From IMG/VR virus record IMGVR_UViG_3300043436_003658, positions 1-31,631 of that record: a DNA stretch of 31,631 nucleotides. The stretch is one strand, 5' to 3'. The DNA is from a virus. The notes under the pieces are model-generated. The model worked only from the letters and a program-made list of their open reading frames with translations, was not told where the DNA came from and did not search any database. Of this stretch, positions 9,262-31,630 are shown piece by piece. The translations under genes were made by a program, and so were the position numbers. Positions within the stretch are counted from its first letter, which is position 1. Each line of letters begins with the position of its first letter.

Positions 9262-10134
9262 TTAAAATATATACCTAATGGTATTCCAATTAATAATATC
9301 ATCATGTAAATTAGTCCAATCTTTGATGTAATCAGCCTTTAATTCATGTTTGTATCTAATATTTGTTCCGCCATATTGAGATATTTTATTTTCCTGGGTT
9401 GTTGGAGTCCACAATAAATCTTCTCCAGGTATTTTATTATCTAAATTGTATTGATGCTTTTTTGCATTATGCGTTAAGAAAATTACTTCTGCTTTTACAG
9501 AATTATTATCCCATCCGTTTTTTTCTGCATACTGGCTGACCTGAACAAAAAGTTTTGAATAATCTCTAAGATAATTAGGTGATACAATTACAGGACTAAA
9601 ATTAAGATGTACTTCATAACCGGCTTCTTTAAATAAACTTACAGCTTTTAATCTTTCTTCTATAGAACTAGTGTTTGGTTCTAACTTATCAGCAAAAATC
9701 TGAGGCATTAAACTAAACCTAATTCTAATTTTACCTTCAGGATTAAAAGCAAGAAGTTTTTTGTTAACATACTTTGTAGCAAATGATCCCATTGCCACAG
9801 GATGCATTTTAAAGAAATCAAATATATATTCCCACTGATGATATTTAGCATGAAGTGCAAAATCTTCATTGCATGAAATGTCATAAGTTATATACTCAGA
9901 ATGAGTTTGATTAGGTTTTACTACATCTGCAAATGCTGCATGATTATTTATCTCTGTTAAGATTTGACTGGGATTGGTTGCAATATCTAAACCGTAAGGT
10001 TTATGTCTTTTCATGTAGCAGTAGCCGCATTCATATAAGCAGCCGTGACCAAAACTGGGCGCAATAAAATCAGTACTACGCCCGGATGGTCTAATAATCA
10101 TACTTTTTCTAACTACTTTCTCAACGGTGCTCAT
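9262..10134 (-). CDS. Radical SAM protein of the spore photoproduct lyase (SPL)-like family
   Basis: A 290-residue protein with the canonical radical-SAM cluster motif CxxxCxxC: C32, C36 and C39 in GCLYECGYCYMKRH. The preceding stretch SMIIRPSGRSTDFIAPSFGHG is typical of SPL-family radical SAM proteins. Fifty-six residues after C32 there is another cysteine (C88) in YDISCNEDFALH. In Bacillus SPL the hydrogen-atom donor Cys141 lies 51 residues after the first cluster cysteine in a similar segment (..EACTSDxxGxxH). The later blocks RIRFSLMPQ and a VHLNFSPVIV segment fit the TIM-barrel strands of this family. B. subtilis SPL is somewhat longer (about 340 aa). SPL reverses the spore thymine photoproduct 5-thyminyl-5,6-dihydrothymine; whether this phage protein repairs such a lesion or acts on another substrate is unknown. 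It is coupled by ATGA to the upstream 73-residue gene. Confidence 0.8.
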   Translation of the reverse strand: MSTVEKVVRKSMIIRPSGRSTDFIAPSFGHGCLYECGYCYMKRHKPYGLDIATNPSQILTEINNHAAFADVVKPNQTHSEYITYDISCNEDFALHAKYHQWEYIFDFFKMHPVAMGSFATKYVNKKLLAFNPEGKIRIRFSLMPQIFADKLEPNTSSIEERLKAVSLFKEAGYEVHLNFSPVIVSPNYLRDYSKLFVQVSQYAEKNGWDNNSVKAEVIFLTHNAKKHQYNLDNKIPGEDLLWTPTTQENKISQYGGTNIRYKHELKADYIKDWTNLHDDIINWNTIRYIF

Positions 10135-18052: not shown

Positions 18053-19014
18053 TATTTTTTAAGTTTTAATTTGAAATCAAAGATTGAACTTCTTTCAATG
18101 TGGGGACTATAATAGTTGTCTGCAACTTTTTCAAGTATCTCATTACTTGCTTTGACACCAAAGATCTTTTCATATAGTTGAACTATTTGATCAGCATTTC
18201 TTGAATAAGATACAGTTGTATTATATCCTTTATTTATTAAAGGCATTATTGGAATCCTTACATTCTTTTTAATGTCTCCTTTCATGTGATTAATTATGCA
18301 AATTAATTCTATAAAAGAAGTGTATGGATTAATTGTATTCAATATGGTTACTGCAATTTTTTCAGTATCGCGATTGCTTAAAAGTGTTTTAACTTTATTT
18401 AACTGGTCACTTGTGATTGCTGAGTTATTACAATGTTTATATACTTCATGTATTGAAAGACATTTAAACTCATTTGGAACAAAGACACCTTCTAATGTTA
18501 AGACTTTTGATGCATCATGTTCTGATGACAAATGCCAATTTGAATTAGCATATTTATGTGCACTGTGCCATTGATAAGCCATTTGAACATAATCATTTTC
18601 ATCAATAAGTTCAAAGTCTAATGCATTGTTTAGCACTTCTACAGTTTTTTCATAATAAGAACTGTTATAGTTTAGTTCTAATACATCTTTTACTTTTTGA
18701 AAACAATATCTTTCTACTTGATCTAAAGCATGTATATAATAATCACAACTAAATTTTTGAACATCTCCTGATTTTATCTCAGCATCTATTAAAAGATTCT
18801 TTCTGATATCTAAAGGTGCATAGATTGTCAAATTTTTATTGGTGATTATGCTTTTAACATCATGTGTTTCAATTTTTATATTATCAATTTCAAGTTGTAC
18901 TTGAGGATTGAGTAAAAACTTTTCTGTTTTTAATTTATCTGTACTTCTAAACCAAGTAGGAGTTCCCGGAAAACAAATCTCCGGGAGCTTCACTACATTA
19001 ATATACTTTATCAT
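18052..19014 (-). CDS. Hypothetical protein, 320 aa, linked to the MoxR/VWA pair
   Basis: A soluble protein with no family I recognise. The N-terminal half is beta-rich (VKLPEICFPGTPTWFRS); the middle is helical with many Y, H and N residues. Around residues 200-235 it carries the two-helix motif AITSDQLNKVKTLLSNRDTE followed by KIAVTILNTI, which is shared with three other small proteins in the window. It is joined to the MoxR-like gene by an ATGA overlap and to the nuclease gene by TAATG. Co-translation suggests it may be a client, adaptor or regulator of the MoxR-VWA machinery; this is inference from context. Confidence 0.7.
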   Translation of the reverse strand: MIKYINVVKLPEICFPGTPTWFRSTDKLKTEKFLLNPQVQLEIDNIKIETHDVKSIITNKNLTIYAPLDIRKNLLIDAEIKSGDVQKFSCDYYIHALDQVERYCFQKVKDVLELNYNSSYYEKTVEVLNNALDFELIDENDYVQMAYQWHSAHKYANSNWHLSSEHDASKVLTLEGVFVPNEFKCLSIHEVYKHCNNSAITSDQLNKVKTLLSNRDTEKIAVTILNTINPYTSFIELICIINHMKGDIKKNVRIPIMPLINKGYNTTVSYSRNADQIVQLYEKIFGVKASNEILEKVADNYYSPHIERSSIFDFKLKLKK

Positions 19015-20207
19015 TCTAAAATAACATTGATTACTTCGTCCTCAAGCATGAGAACATTGTATTTGTTGTTAGAGTTAATTACCTTTTTAGCTAATACAAA
19101 TTTCAAATCTGCACCAAGGCATTGGCTTACTACAAGTTCTTTGACTCTTTCAATAAAAGCAGGGTTGATCTCCTTGTCTTTTACATTATAGATCATGTGG
19201 TTAATCAAACGTGTGGTCAATACATAAGCTAAATCTGAGCGATATGCAGGACCTTCTTTGATTAGTTCTTTAATCTTACCTTGTATTGTATCAAAGCTAA
19301 CTTTGGTGTCTAAGATATCCATAGGTGAAATCATTTTATCCAACTTGTTATGAATAAATGAAGTAAACATAGTAGTTACTTCAGGGCCTACGGCACCTTC
19401 ACCAATGTTTTGAATTAGCGCTAAGTTTTTATCAAAGTCTTTGATAGTTCTTAGTGAGTTATAGAATTTAACTAAGCTTCTTGGATTAACTTCTGGACGG
19501 TTGTCTTTGATAATTTCTTTACCATTTAGCAAAGTAAAGTTAATTGCGCGTTGGTCAATGCCTGATTTCTCAGCCCATTCAGCCCATACTTCTGGCTCCC
19601 AGCGCATATCAAATGTAATGTATCTTGACTTAGCTGCAGCATCAATGTCAGTTACATTGTAAGTACCGTCATCAGGATTTTCTGTAAGAAGAATTGTCCA
19701 TCCTTTTGGCAACGCCCAAGAAATATATCTTTGCTTGTCAATGATTTCCATAACAGCTTGCATAAAGCGTGGTGCTGCACGAGTATAGTCATCTAAGATA
19801 AGCACACCATTTTCTCCTTTACCGGAGATCCAAGCTGGCTTAGCATAACTCATTCGGCTTTGTCCATTAGCCTTCCATCCCTGTGCAGCAAAGGAATCCA
19901 TGACTTTTTCATCAACCCATTTACCTACTGCTTTGTCACCTTGCTTAGCAACCATCTGATATTCCTTAACAGGAATACCAACCAAGTCACCTAACTCATC
20001 TAACTGTGCAAGGTTAATAATTTCTACATGATTTATATTTAGCTCTTCGGCTAATTGTTCTACTACTGATGTTTTACCTAAACCTGCTGCTCCACATATA
20101 GAAACCGCTACCGGTTTCAAGTTATCTTCTTGCAATGCGCGATTGTTTAAGATAATGTGTGTTAATGTTTCCTTTAATTCTTTACTGTTTAATTGTACCT
20201 TATTCAT
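19011..20207 (-). CDS. MoxR-type AAA+ ATPase
   Basis: A 398-residue AAA+ protein. Walker A is GAAGLGKTS (39-47), followed by INLAQLDELGDLVG (the MoxR-type pore/insert region). Walker B is GVLILDDYTRA (134-144), then PRFMQAVMEIIDKQRY, a sensor-1 TILLTENPDDG, and sensor-2/arginine-finger region DAAAKSRYITFDM. These are features of the MoxR clade, whose members act as chaperones that remodel or load metal-binding and VWA-domain partners. The next gene (5 bp downstream) encodes a VWA protein with an HExxH segment, the classic MoxR-VWA pairing. The 3' end overlaps the 320-residue gene as ATGA. A GGAG lies only 2 bases from the ATG, too close for a good ribosome-binding site. Confidence 0.88.
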   Translation of the reverse strand: MNKVQLNSKELKETLTHIILNNRALQEDNLKPVAVSICGAAGLGKTSVVEQLAEELNINHVEIINLAQLDELGDLVGIPVKEYQMVAKQGDKAVGKWVDEKVMDSFAAQGWKANGQSRMSYAKPAWISGKGENGVLILDDYTRAAPRFMQAVMEIIDKQRYISWALPKGWTILLTENPDDGTYNVTDIDAAAKSRYITFDMRWEPEVWAEWAEKSGIDQRAINFTLLNGKEIIKDNRPEVNPRSLVKFYNSLRTIKDFDKNLALIQNIGEGAVGPEVTTMFTSFIHNKLDKMISPMDILDTKVSFDTIQGKIKELIKEGPAYRSDLAYVLTTRLINHMIYNVKDKEINPAFIERVKELVVSQCLGADLKFVLAKKVINSNNKYNVLMLEDEVINVILE

Positions 20208-20212
20208 AACTC

Positions 20213-21436
20213 CTAATTTAATTTAACTGTTTTTCCTGGTAAATGATCTGTATCACTACATTTTGTTGATAGAACCCACAATATGTTTTTTACTGGGGCA
20301 TCTGGTGCAGGTGCTTCACCATCTGTAAGATAGATAAGCGTTGTATATTTCTTCTTGTACTTGAGATAATAGTCAACTACAGGATTGAAATCTGTACCAC
20401 CTCTTTTCTTTATGTCAAGCGGGGTATTAGGTCTATATCTAATTGGATCTTGCATTTCAGTATCAGCAAATACTAATGTGAAATCATGACCGCATTTATA
20501 CATATGATGTATTTCATTCATAAACTCTTTAATCTCATCATCAGATACTGAAGCTGAGCTATCTATAGCAATAAGAATGTGAGACAACTCTTGTACGCGT
20601 ATGCCAAAGTCAAGTTCAAACCTTTTACTTTGCTTTCTTTTAGTCTTACGCATCATGCTCTTAGAGCTGTTACCAATATATCTTCTTAGATAAGCTCTCC
20701 AATTAAACTTAGGTGGTTCTATGTTCTTGAGAGCTTCCATTCTTTGTAAGACATTGTGCGGTATAGTACCGCGCATCTTTTGGACTTGCTCTACAACCTC
20801 TGTAAGCATTACTTCTAATTGCTTATCTACAAGTTTCTGTTGAGTATCTGTAAGATCAGCAAAGTCATCCCATTGGTGATCCGGAACCTGCATGTTGTTT
20901 TGTCCTTGTCCTTGAGTTTGCATGGTGCCATTATCAATAGCATCTTGAATAGCATCCAATAGACTTTGACCACCTGATCCATTGCCTTGACCAGGACCTT
21001 TTTCTTTTTCTTTACTTAACTTATCATAGTATGTATTAGTACCTTCTTCAGGTAACAATCCATAATCTTCAAATTTTTCAAGTGTACATCCGCCAGGTGG
21101 CAAATACTTTTCATCAATCTTTTGGTTAATCTCAATATCTTGAGAAATATTAGCCAATTCATGATTAGGCAAGTGTTTGTATTCTGTTATATGAAAGAAT
21201 GCAATGTGCATCAATTCGTGTTGCAACAATCCTTTTTTGTGGTCATCACTTAGTGATTGCCAAAAATCTGGATTGATATACAGTTTGTAGTTAATTCCAT
21301 TTAAACCTACACCGGCTGTAGGAACTTTAGTAGTCCATTCCTTGTTTAGGTGTAGTAACAACAAGCCATAAAATGGCTGCTCTAACATAAGATCTTTACA
21401 AATCTTTGTTAAATTCTTTTGGAGGTCGTAATTCAT
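20213..21436 (-). CDS. VWA-domain protein with putative metallopeptidase region (DUF2201-like)
   Basis: 407 residues. HELMH at 73-77 is an HExxH zinc-peptidase-like motif within LLQHELMHIAFFHI, following a YKLYINPDFW block. A Gly/Gln/Asn-rich linker covers about 148-190, a basic stretch (RKTKRKQSKRF) about 263-273, and a VWA domain starts at about 285. The MIDAS site is complete: DSSAS (292-296), T348 in GGTDF, and D372 in LTDGEAP. This matches the DUF2201 family (N-terminal putative metallopeptidase plus VWA-like domain), usually encoded beside a MoxR-like ATPase as here. It starts 41 bp inside the end of the 141-residue gene. Together they probably form a metal-dependent remodelling or protease complex with unknown target. 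Confidence 0.87.
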   Translation of the reverse strand: MNYDLQKNLTKICKDLMLEQPFYGLLLLHLNKEWTTKVPTAGVGLNGINYKLYINPDFWQSLSDDHKKGLLQHELMHIAFFHITEYKHLPNHELANISQDIEINQKIDEKYLPPGGCTLEKFEDYGLLPEEGTNTYYDKLSKEKEKGPGQGNGSGGQSLLDAIQDAIDNGTMQTQGQGQNNMQVPDHQWDDFADLTDTQQKLVDKQLEVMLTEVVEQVQKMRGTIPHNVLQRMEALKNIEPPKFNWRAYLRRYIGNSSKSMMRKTKRKQSKRFELDFGIRVQELSHILIAIDSSASVSDDEIKEFMNEIHHMYKCGHDFTLVFADTEMQDPIRYRPNTPLDIKKRGGTDFNPVVDYYLKYKKKYTTLIYLTDGEAPAPDAPVKNILWVLSTKCSDTDHLPGKTVKLN

Positions 21437-28833: not shown

Positions 28834-29101
28834 ATATTTTTTTTTCTGCAGGACTTAAACAGTCGTATGTGTAAGTTGGTTCATTAAACATTTCTTCTTC
28901 TGTTTCATAATAGGGTTCTGTTTTGCTTCCAAGTATGTTACTGCTTTTACTTTTATGAAGAAGGGTATTCTTGTAACTATATACTACTGCAACTACTTGT
29001 TCTTCTGTAAGGTCCTTGGCTTTAGCTATAGCTTCTATGCTCCAACCAATTTGATACATTAACTTAATAGTATTACAGTTAGCGTATGACAATTCTGTCA
29101 T
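28793..29101 (-). CDS. Small protein with predicted helix-turn-helix, 102 aa
   Basis: The N terminus, NCNTIKLMYQIGWSIEAIAK and AKDLTEEQVVAVVYSYKN, reads as a helix-turn-helix of the type 'G-x-s-x-x-x-I-A-k-x-x-x-l-t-x-x-x-V' found in phage regulators. The rest is acidic and ends with a YDCLSPAEKKIYDE segment. It overlaps the next gene by 41 bp and is joined to the preceding one by ATGA. A transcriptional regulator is likely from the fold alone, but the target is unknown. Confidence 0.6.
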   Translation of the reverse strand: MTELSYANCNTIKLMYQIGWSIEAIAKAKDLTEEQVVAVVYSYKNTLLHKSKSSNILGSKTEPYYETEEEMFNEPTYTYDCLSPAEKKIYDESRSNKQKLLP

Positions 29102-29382
29102 GCTACAGGTGTGCTGAGAATCTCTTGCAGTTCTGCTTCTAATTCTGCTATTTCTTTGTTGTCAACAGGCTCAAATCTGTTAGGGTTGAAATAGTGATAG
29201 GGAAAGCATGACTCATCAAGTTTGATTTCTGCGAGTTCAAAGCCAAGTGCATTGGATGATAGTAACATCTGCACACCGATGACTGTATAAATCTGACCTT
29301 TTTTAATCCACTTGTCTTGTGGGATTTCTTGTGGCTTGTTGGCATCATTGATACACATCACTGCCATAGGTAAATCATTCAT
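29098..29382 (-). CDS. Small SH3-like conserved phage protein, 94 aa
   Basis: Pattern seen: MCINDANKPQEIPQDKWIKK, GQIYTVIGVQMLL, LGFELAEIKLD and PYHYFNPNRFEP. The order 'C.dd..kP..Ip..kW.kkG..YtV......gf.L.Ei.l.....y..f...RF' is, from memory, a recurrent small beta-barrel (SH3-like) protein in phages of Bacteroidota. Its role is not known; such small barrels often bind nucleic acid or protein. ATGA overlaps join it to both neighbours. Confidence 0.65.
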   Translation of the reverse strand: MNDLPMAVMCINDANKPQEIPQDKWIKKGQIYTVIGVQMLLSSNALGFELAEIKLDESCFPYHYFNPNRFEPVDNKEIAELEAELQEILSTPVA

Positions 29383-29588
29383 ATTTTTTTTCCTGTTTTA
29401 ATGTCTTCTACATCATCTTCAGATAAGTTTTCATACCATTCTACAAATTCATTTACAAAGTCTCCGTGTAGGTCTTCTAAGACCCCTATGAGATATGTTG
29501 TAAATATATTACTACATTGGATTTTACTAAACCCTCCGTCCCTCAGTATTGTGAGGATGTCATCCGGTATGTCAACTGTTATCTTCAT
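29379..29588 (-). CDS. Small acidic hypothetical protein, 69 aa
   Basis: MKITVDIPDDILTILRDGGF, then an amphipathic helix rich in E and D (FVNEFVEWYENLSEDDVEDI). The start resembles the N-terminal strand of ribbon-helix-helix-like proteins, but nothing decides it. ATGA overlaps on both sides. Function unknown. Confidence 0.6.
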   Translation of the reverse strand: MKITVDIPDDILTILRDGGFSKIQCSNIFTTYLIGVLEDLHGDFVNEFVEWYENLSEDDVEDIKTGKKI

Positions 29589-29884
29589 GGTGCTTGCAAC
29601 TTAATTATTTTCTGTAGGAACAATTCATTCTCTCTCTTCAGGTCTTTGATTTTATTCTCAAGATCTTTTAATCTTGTTTTATATCCCCTGCTTTTAAGAA
29701 TCAATGCTCCCTTCTCTTCTGTTTTCATTAAGTCTTTAAGCTCATCAAATTCTGATTGTAGCATGCCGAGTTGAATCTTTAGATGTTTGTTTTCTTTTTC
29801 TAAAGATTCTTTCTCATGCTGCAGCCAGATTAATTTTTCCTCCGCGGACTGCGGGCGGAAATTCATTAGTGGTTCATCTGTCAT
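29585..29884 (-). CDS. Coiled-coil protein, 99 aa
   Basis: Nearly all of residues 15-95 form a predicted coiled coil (EKLIWLQHEKESLEKENKHL, then a MLQSEFDELKDLMKTEEK stretch and a final LKRENELFLQKIIKL). No enzyme or DNA-binding motif. It is coupled to the 69-residue gene by ATGA and starts 2 bp after the ClpS-like gene ends. Could be a scaffold or partner of its neighbour; not testable from sequence. Confidence 0.65.
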   Translation of the reverse strand: MTDEPLMNFRPQSAEEKLIWLQHEKESLEKENKHLKIQLGMLQSEFDELKDLMKTEEKGALILKSRGYKTRLKDLENKIKDLKRENELFLQKIIKLQAP

Positions 29885-29886
29885 AT

Positions 29887-30108
29887 TTACTGTATTAAAT
29901 CAACCTTTAAGTTGACATTTTCTAAATCATGTTTTATATCCAGTAATTCAATGTAATCTCCTGTCATGATAGAGCATTTGCCTGCGTTGTGTGCAATCAA
30001 TACACATTGTTCAGCTTGCATTGGCAAATGATCACAGAACCTAATTAATGATGCCATTACTTTTGGAAAGCTATTGCGATCATCATTATGTAATATTAGT
30101 TTTGCCAT
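29887..30108 (-). CDS. clpS: ClpS-like N-degron adaptor
   Basis: 73 residues matching the ClpS core. LILHNDDRNSFPKVMASLIR corresponds to 'vilxNDD.t..e.Vi.vL'. The N8-D9-D10 block equals E. coli ClpS N34-D35-D36, which bind the alpha-amino group of the substrate. CDHLPMQAEQCVLIAHNAGK holds H40, equal to ClpS H66, in the 'A..l.l.vH..Gk' motif, and then come DYIELLDIK and a final LKVDLIQ. ClpS delivers proteins with N-terminal L, F, W or Y to the ClpAP/ClpCP protease. The 'QAEQC' block is, from memory, typical of Bacteroidota ClpS. The N-terminal extension E. coli ClpS needs for delivery (about 25 residues) is absent if the ATG at 30108 is used. An ATG at 30213 would add 35 residues but overlap the helicase by 128 bases. 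It overlaps the SF2 helicase by 23 bp. Confidence 0.82.
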   Translation of the reverse strand: MAKLILHNDDRNSFPKVMASLIRFCDHLPMQAEQCVLIAHNAGKCSIMTGDYIELLDIKHDLENVNLKVDLIQ

Positions 30109-31177
30109 TGTATTTAAATATTTTACTTCTATCAAAGTCTGCCAGTGCTTTCTTACACCATTTGGTATCAATTGTATTTCTGTAGCACAACAAATGTATA
30201 ACACTTTTTTCATTTGGATTAAGCCTTAGAAATCTACCTATCTTTTGGCTTAGCTTTTTCTCATTGGCATATGCATGCATAATGATACCAACTTTTAAAT
30301 CAGGTATGTTAGCTCCTTCAGCAATTTGTTGAACAGAACTTAATTTAGTGATTTTTCCTGACTTAAACAAATCTAAGTGTTCTTTAGATTTTTTTTCTTT
30401 GCTATGATAAGAGTGTTCACAAATGATATCAGCTTGCTTTGTGTAATCAGTAAAGACTAATGTCTTTTCTGTTTGTTGATCAAGCAAACGCTTAGCATAG
30501 GTAACCTTAGTGTTATAAGATTGCAATGCTTTCATGCGCATAACTCTTTTCATTGCCTTTTGATCTTCTGTTTTAGCATTACTAATCATCTTATCCCACA
30601 TAGCGTAATTAAATTGCTCTGACATCAATGCTCCTCGTGATGTTCTAAAGTTTTTTCTAGAATCTAAATCTAAAAGATGCACATAGATTTTATAATCATT
30701 AAGCAATTTATCATGTATACCTTCTTTGATTGTATACTTATAGGCTACTGGAAAGTATTCATGACAAACAATGTAACTTTCTGCTAAATAATATTTAGGA
30801 TAAGTTCCGGTTAAACCAAGCATGGTTCCTTTGTAGTGCTGCATCCAATTAGCATGCTTATACTTGGCGTTATGACATTCATCAAAGTATACAGCATCAT
30901 AGGTAAAAGGTTCTTTATGAAGACTAAGATAGGTTACAAACTTAATGTGATAGATTAAGTATCCATATCCGTGATCTTGTGCTTGTTGTAACCATTCATT
31001 ATGAATTGAAACTTTAGGAGCAACAACTAAGAACATAGCAGTATCATGATACTTTGTTACCATATGTTTTATCCCAAGCAATGTTTTACCTGCACCGGTA
31101 CCAAGTACTACACCTGCACGCTTTTTATTACCTATAGCTTCAAGACATTCTTGCTGTATAATTGATTTTTGATTCAT
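30086..31177 (-). CDS. SF2 DNA/RNA helicase (UvsW/SNF2-like)
   Basis: A 363-residue two-RecA-domain SF2 helicase: a QQECLEAI Q-motif-like start, Walker A LGTGAGKTLL with GTGAGKT (26-32), motif Ia VVAPKV, motif II YFDECHNAK (DECH 99-102), motif III LTGT (122-125). In the second domain TLVFTDYTKQADII is motif IV, QQIAEGANIPDLKVGIIMH motif V and QKIGRFLRLNPNEKS motif VI (Q..GR..R). This fits the short phage helicases (UvsW, SNF2-like) that remodel forks and recombination intermediates; related genes occur in crAss-like replication blocks. ATGA couples it to the 71-residue gene upstream. Confidence 0.88.
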   Translation of the reverse strand: MNQKSIIQQECLEAIGNKKRAGVVLGTGAGKTLLGIKHMVTKYHDTAMFLVVAPKVSIHNEWLQQAQDHGYGYLIYHIKFVTYLSLHKEPFTYDAVYFDECHNAKYKHANWMQHYKGTMLGLTGTYPKYYLAESYIVCHEYFPVAYKYTIKEGIHDKLLNDYKIYVHLLDLDSRKNFRTSRGALMSEQFNYAMWDKMISNAKTEDQKAMKRVMRMKALQSYNTKVTYAKRLLDQQTEKTLVFTDYTKQADIICEHSYHSKEKKSKEHLDLFKSGKITKLSSVQQIAEGANIPDLKVGIIMHAYANEKKLSQKIGRFLRLNPNEKSVIHLLCYRNTIDTKWCKKALADFDRSKIFKYNGKTNIT

Positions 31178-31393: not shown

Positions 31394-31630
31394 TTATTTT
31401 AAATAACCAAGTTCTCTTGCTGTTTGTGGATTAGCATGCACCCATTGGTGACAAGTTCTGCATGTTGCAAACCAGGTGTCAACCTCTAAGTAATTAGTTC
31501 CTCTATATGCAGAGTGATGTATCTCAGTTGACTGAGATGTACATTGTGCTGAACCAATCTGACACATGCTGTGTTGTTCTAAATAGATCCGTCTTAACTT
31601 GGTATAAAGAGGATCTAATTTCTTTTTCTT
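31394..31630 (-). CDS. HNH endonuclease-like protein, C-terminal part (start outside window)
   Basis: The frame is open at the right edge, so the N terminus is missing; 78 residues are visible. HSMCQIGSAQCTSQSTEIHH contains C..(6)..C spacing and the HNH-type 'a-t-E-I-H-H' pair (EIHH). It is followed by YRGTNYLEVDTWFATCRTCH with a CxxC zinc pair, and QWVHANPQTARELGY. 'EIHH..gR...yl....w...Cr.CH..i...P..A...gy' is the usual form of small phage HNH-type nucleases (related to NinG-type and recombination endonucleases). It is likely the first gene or near the start of the visible minus-strand chain. Confidence 0.7.
   Translation of the reverse strand, partial: KKKKLDPLYTKLRRIYLEQHSMCQIGSAQCTSQSTEIHHSAYRGTNYLEVDTWFATCRTCHQWVHANPQTARELGYLK

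Follow-up and report, generated by a model that had tools for sequence, protein, structure and literature searches.

Here we show, on the evidence of gene sequences, that the ClpS proteins of a crAss-like phage lineage lack the N-terminal extension (NTE) throughout the family, whereas the ClpS of Bacteroidota bears one. The member that we characterized is encoded at 29887..30108 on the minus strand of the window, by which we mean the whole stretch of DNA analyzed, an IMG/VR record of 31.6 kb (31,631 nucleotides). Translation of this ORF (30108..29887) gives a protein of 73 aa, MAKLILHNDD...VDLIQ. The original prediction had taken it by eye for a phage-encoded ClpS and had proposed an HMM search, which bears the identity out: Pfam PF02617 (ClpS) matches with E=5.1e-11 and 42.7 bits against a curated cut-off of 23, and ClpS is likewise matched by 16 of 16 members of phage family alignment A2. 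The fold agrees as well. An AlphaFold model computed from alignment A3 (phage and bacterial relatives) has a pLDDT of 97.8 and the secondary structure E2-7 H14-25 H29-42 E44-50 H52-64 E69-72, and all of its 73 residues superpose on residues 27-105 of E. coli ClpS (Z 14.5, 0.9 Å rmsd). Against ClpS structures in general Z lies at 13.0-15.3, with full-length superposition also on the ClpS of Caulobacter, Mycolicibacterium and Arabidopsis. Since the protein begins at E. coli position 27 and the published core of E. coli ClpS extends from residue 26 or 27 to 106 (PMC9663308, PMC12493166), the window protein is the core and nothing else, as had been proposed, and the ORF is a true ClpS core. Selection on the phage ClpS proteins is purifying: dN/dS is 0.10-0.35 in the window's own sub-clade (pairs with measurable dS) and its median across 390 pairs drawn from the wider family is 0.27.

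Some other likenesses were set aside. The PDB profile search was run on the family alignment without E. coli ClpS, the inclusion of which would have been circular. TAL-effector repeats, the top PDB matches when phmmer was run with the single ClpS sequence, are a chance result, as profile and fold searches give ClpS. The ClpS fold is known to be distantly similar to the C-terminal fold of L7/L12, which accounts for a likeness to the latter at Z 8-10.6, below that for ClpS. Glutathione peroxidase gave a weak Pfam match only (0.11).

The substrate pocket is largely kept. By alignment, N8, D9, D10 and H40 of the window protein correspond to E. coli N34, D35, D36 and H66, exactly the pairs named in the original prediction. 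Across 52 aligned phage ClpS sequences N34 and D35 are both found in 52 of 52, D36 in 51 of 52 and H66 in 44 of 52. The histidine is replaced by D in seven aligned sequences (part of a sister clade and a few others) and by E in L023, while D36 is replaced by K in L022; the carriers of such pocket drift are L022, L023, L071, L080, L091, L098, L111, L115 and L117. The pocket is thus not under full constraint, and N-degron binding may be altered in that part of the sister clade. The hydrophobic pocket positions of E. coli ClpS, which we take to be M40, V43, V46, M62, V65 and L99, are occupied in the window by F14, V17, S20, V36, A39 and L67, partly changed, as they are in host ClpS; relative to the host, the phage pocket lining shifts at V46 (to C/S) and at V65 (to A/V/T). 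MAFFT aligns the E. coli ClpA contacts E79, E82 and K84 with D51, E54 and L56, in a helix 3 whose register is ambiguous by 1-2 residues, and the motif E54-D57-K59 has the same spacing as E79/E82/K84 one register away.

Scans of viral contigs with the window's single ClpS or helicase sequence returned no relatives; these were found with PolB and then with family alignments. The PolB search led to eleven relative records, five of the 11 with clpS and the same five with the helicase, and the family-alignment scan gave 184 relatives; the locus counts below use the best 80. One metagenome record of 22.8 kb (L009) has a PolB 100% identical to that of the window over 488 residues, and its sequence indicates that it is a second sampling of this phage or of one very close to it. 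Megablast of 21.6 kb of the window against named phages gave no match, nor did ClpS against plasmids. The window record itself yielded no identifiable capsid gene. A near-complete relative of 117 kb (G001) has TerL (phrog_6681), portal (phrog_6547) and MCP (phrog_11589) genes; the best match of its MCP is Leptolyngbya phage Lbo-JY46 (L201; 26% over 99%), followed by Azobacteroides phage ProJPt-Bp1, the Cellulophaga phages phi17:2 and phi4:1, and csAssE-Sib. On these protein matches of a relative we call the carrier lineage crAss-like, without a family name. Its capsid lineage seems to reach beyond Bacteroidota phages, since the best named match is a cyanobacterial phage capsid.

The host is probably a member of the Bacteroidota, the phylum to which the original prediction had also pointed. 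The best cellular ClpS matches are all from Bacteroidota wherever the record title gives the phylum or a rank below it, and a Shine-Dalgarno-like motif precedes only 2 of the 33 starts in the window, which fits such a host. Of 148 Bacteroidota genomes sampled, 146 have ClpS; it was not found in the control genome of Bacteroides ihuae. Clp_N proteins of about 850-890 aa, the size of ClpB/ClpC, occur in all 13 of 13 ClpS-bearing Bacteroidota genomes, and the ten phage records searched held no Clp_N or ClpP over the family cut-off, so that the target or partner of phage ClpS would be the host's. A ClpP candidate in G007 was rejected, its match being below cut-off and interrupted by an internal stop.

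Whether the window protein is really without an extension depends on its start codon, a question that the original prediction had raised and that the relatives and the helicase reading frame settle. The core begins at an ATG at 30106..30108 (minus strand), conserved in L038-L042 and L022, and the first 23 bases of the gene are shared with the 3' end of the helicase gene. An alternative ATG at 30213 would add 35 codons, and in the window the ClpS frame is indeed open for 112 codons; those 35 codons, however, fall within the helicase ORF (31177..30086), in a different frame. The frame is also closed close to the core in the nearest relatives: in L039-L042, which share the start ATG and the local sequence, an in-frame stop lies 18 codons before the N-D pair of the pocket, in L038 it lies 9 codons ahead, and in L022 (the same as G010) a stop falls within 9-18 codons. 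More widely, the open frame before N-D is at most 20 codons in 56 of 80 viral loci (best 80 of 184 relatives), and in 79 of 80 of the same set (best 80 of 184) the ATG of the core stands 7, 10, 12 or 13 residues before N-D. With the 30213 stretch lying inside the helicase gene and stops in relatives leaving no upstream room, a start at 30108 is close to certain on sequence grounds, and a true start at 30213, giving a protein with a functional extension, is extremely improbable.

In 52 distinct aligned phage sequences the lead before N-D measures 7-14 residues, 7 in the window and 12 in most members, about 6 of these lying beyond the core. Bacteroidota ClpS has at least 24 residues, most often 26, in the loci examined where an ATG start could be assigned, and the two ranges do not overlap. 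In a ClpS tree of 95 sequences and 79 columns the 52 phage sequences fall on one side of a branch with SH-aLRT 97, among Bacteroidota ClpS. Probably, the phage lineage acquired a Bacteroidota clpS once and then lost the NTE; given the 79 columns, many other open forks and the very long E. coli branch, this is the simplest reading of the tree, not proof. Loss of the lead is not a necessary fate of phage ClpS, as uncultured phages of 635-642 kb keep about 25 residues before N-D. In Vibrio phage 2.275.O (L207) a ClpS-like protein at 592-948, beside IF-3 and RpsU genes, has 12 residues before N-D and is perhaps a second, independent short form.

The overlapping upstream neighbour of clpS is a superfamily 2 DNA helicase of 363 aa (30086..31177, minus strand), identified by Pfam and PHROG (ResIII 1.1e-9, Helicase_C 3.9e-9, phrog_16 DNA helicase 4e-32). 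A homologue precedes clpS in 79 of 80 viral loci (best 80 of 184), the remaining one being cut by the contig end, and the pairing holds across about 45% helicase identity. On the other side, homologues of orf94 (29098..29382, minus strand), to which no function was assigned, follow clpS closely in the wider family, with tblastn matches in 80 of 80 viral loci (best 80 of 184), mostly at most 10 bases after clpS. Flanked in this way across these loci, clpS is a long-standing part of the lineage and not a recent passenger. In the window itself the directly downstream gene is orf99 (29585..29884, minus strand), a predicted coiled coil with weak coiled-coil-like Pfam matches and homologues in L038-L042 only, the window's own sub-clade. 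An HNH-like small protein (31394..31630, minus strand), recognized by motif only, runs off the contig; a Pfam search with it gave no match, and most of the 80 loci (best 80 of 184) have a homologue ahead of the helicase gene.

Because the helicase neighbour is conserved, a function independent of Clp is also conceivable: phage ClpS might read N-degrons and act as a chaperone or tether for a phage protein such as the helicase, whose gene overlaps its own. Ubr1-like proteins do hold ClpS-type domains without a Clp partner, and the drift of H66 in a sub-clade would fit such a role. Gene order is, however, widely conserved in phages and need not mean contact, and the N, D and D of the pocket are still nearly invariant, so that we regard a reader no longer tied to Clp as rather improbable.

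Two further features of the window were noted. In the replication region, a radical-SAM protein at 9262-10134 (minus strand) matches spore photoproduct lyase (PF20903, 2e-20), and a function in repair of DNA photo-damage is possible. At 19011-21436 (minus strand) a MoxR-like AAA ATPase adjoins a DUF2201 metallopeptidase/VWA-like protein, a pair that is a known cellular module and, judged from where the neighbouring ORFs lie and how long they are, is also present in relative L029.

How might a ClpS without its extension act? In E. coli, ClpA pore loops pull the NTE into the channel and thereby remodel ClpS, whereupon the substrate is handed over (PMC9663308). If entry of the NTE is blocked, delivery is inhibited, and with ClpA variants unable to remodel ClpS, ClpS even hindered N-degron degradation (PMC9663308). 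Sequence comparison indicates that the crAss-like lineage took up a Bacteroidota clpS, probably once, lost the coding sequence of the NTE and kept the core beside its replication helicase. This core, with its N-degron pocket, would presumably dock on the N-domain of host ClpC or ClpA. Having no NTE peptide to offer to the ATPase channel, it could hold N-degron proteins or occupy N-domains without handover, and by competing with host ClpS it might, in infected cells, slow the host's turnover of N-degron proteins and perhaps that of other proteins whose degradation depends on the N-domain. A possible gain would be the protection of phage proteins with destabilising N-termini. The family-wide core-only form, the kept pocket and fold, the placing of the phage branch among Bacteroidota ClpS, purifying selection, the Clp_N proteins of the 13 Bacteroidota genomes and the lack of Clp_N and ClpP over the cut-off in the ten phage records searched all count for a competitor or decoy of host ClpS. 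A block or redirection of the host protease had already been put forward in the original prediction, and is drawn from E. coli ClpA biochemistry; we give the decoy reading somewhat less than an even chance. The ambiguous register of the ClpA-contact residues weighs against it. Nor is loss of the pocket histidine (H to D) in part of the sister clade what one would expect of a pure N-degron decoy.

It might also be that phage ClpS is a working delivery adaptor, the Bacteroidota Clp ATPase needing no long NTE, and directs proteins of host or phage to the host protease with a substrate choice of its own. The about 6 residues beyond the core in most members might suffice for delivery in Bacteroidota, which counts against the decoy. 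Pocket and fold are kept under purifying selection, the pocket-lining positions differ somewhat from the host's (V46, V65), and jumbo-phage ClpS has been read in this way (PMC7824862). However, all sampled Bacteroidota ClpS have at least 24 residues before N-D, suggesting that the extension matters there, and it is absent from all sampled phage members; we consider delivery unlikely, if by no means negligible. Taken to its full extent, the decoy reading would mean that a widespread crAss-like lineage uses a tail-stripped host ClpS as an anti-adaptor to switch off or reprogram the N-degron pathway of the host in infection, a proposal that we make tentatively and with some doubt.

If that anti-adaptor reading is true, the protein is a phage inhibitor of N-end-rule proteolysis. 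Up to now, phage ClpS has been regarded as a feeder of host proteins into the protease of the host. A family that never has the segment on which delivery depends in E. coli points the other way for the crAss-like phages carrying it. An inhibitory core would be a means by which the phage counteracts host protein turnover, as well as a small genetically encoded inhibitor of the Bacteroidota N-degron pathway, itself little known. Either way, the phage cores are natural truncations for probing what the NTE does.

Among known systems, E. coli ClpS, the ClpAP adaptor and N-recognin, has the same fold and the same N34/D35/D36/H66 as the window protein, which is six residues shorter in the core loops and does not have the NTE of about 25 residues that in E. 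coli enters the ClpA channel (PMC9663308, PMC12493166). Bacteroidota ClpS (PF02617) is closer, with aligned core segments up to 58% identical and with the signature QAEQC...H..GKC and the N-degron pocket common to host and phage; the host proteins, however, have at least 24 residues before N-D and the window protein 7. The ClpS domain of the eukaryotic Ubr1 N-recognins also resembles it (Z about 10 in the fold comparison, 3e-6 for a UBR1 chain in the profile search), but is part of a very large ligase, whereas the window ClpS is a free 73-aa protein. Jumbo-phage ClpS has been reported before (PMC7824862, PMC6102473) and interpreted as an adaptor bringing targets to host ClpAP (PMC7824862). The jumbo phages PA5oct, Atu_ph07 and Phosso do encode ClpS, but with a lead of 25-26 residues, and the uncultured phages LR745206, LR756502 and LR756504 (635-642 kb) have a Bacteroidota-type ClpS with about 25 residues before N-D; overall, ClpS of the jumbo and 635-642 kb phages has about 22-28 residues before N-D or its equivalent. 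Within the collection of papers searched, none linked ClpS with crAss-like phages. Phage ClpS as such is known; what is new is a conserved NTE-less ClpS across a crAss-like lineage and its contrast with the ClpS of Bacteroidota.
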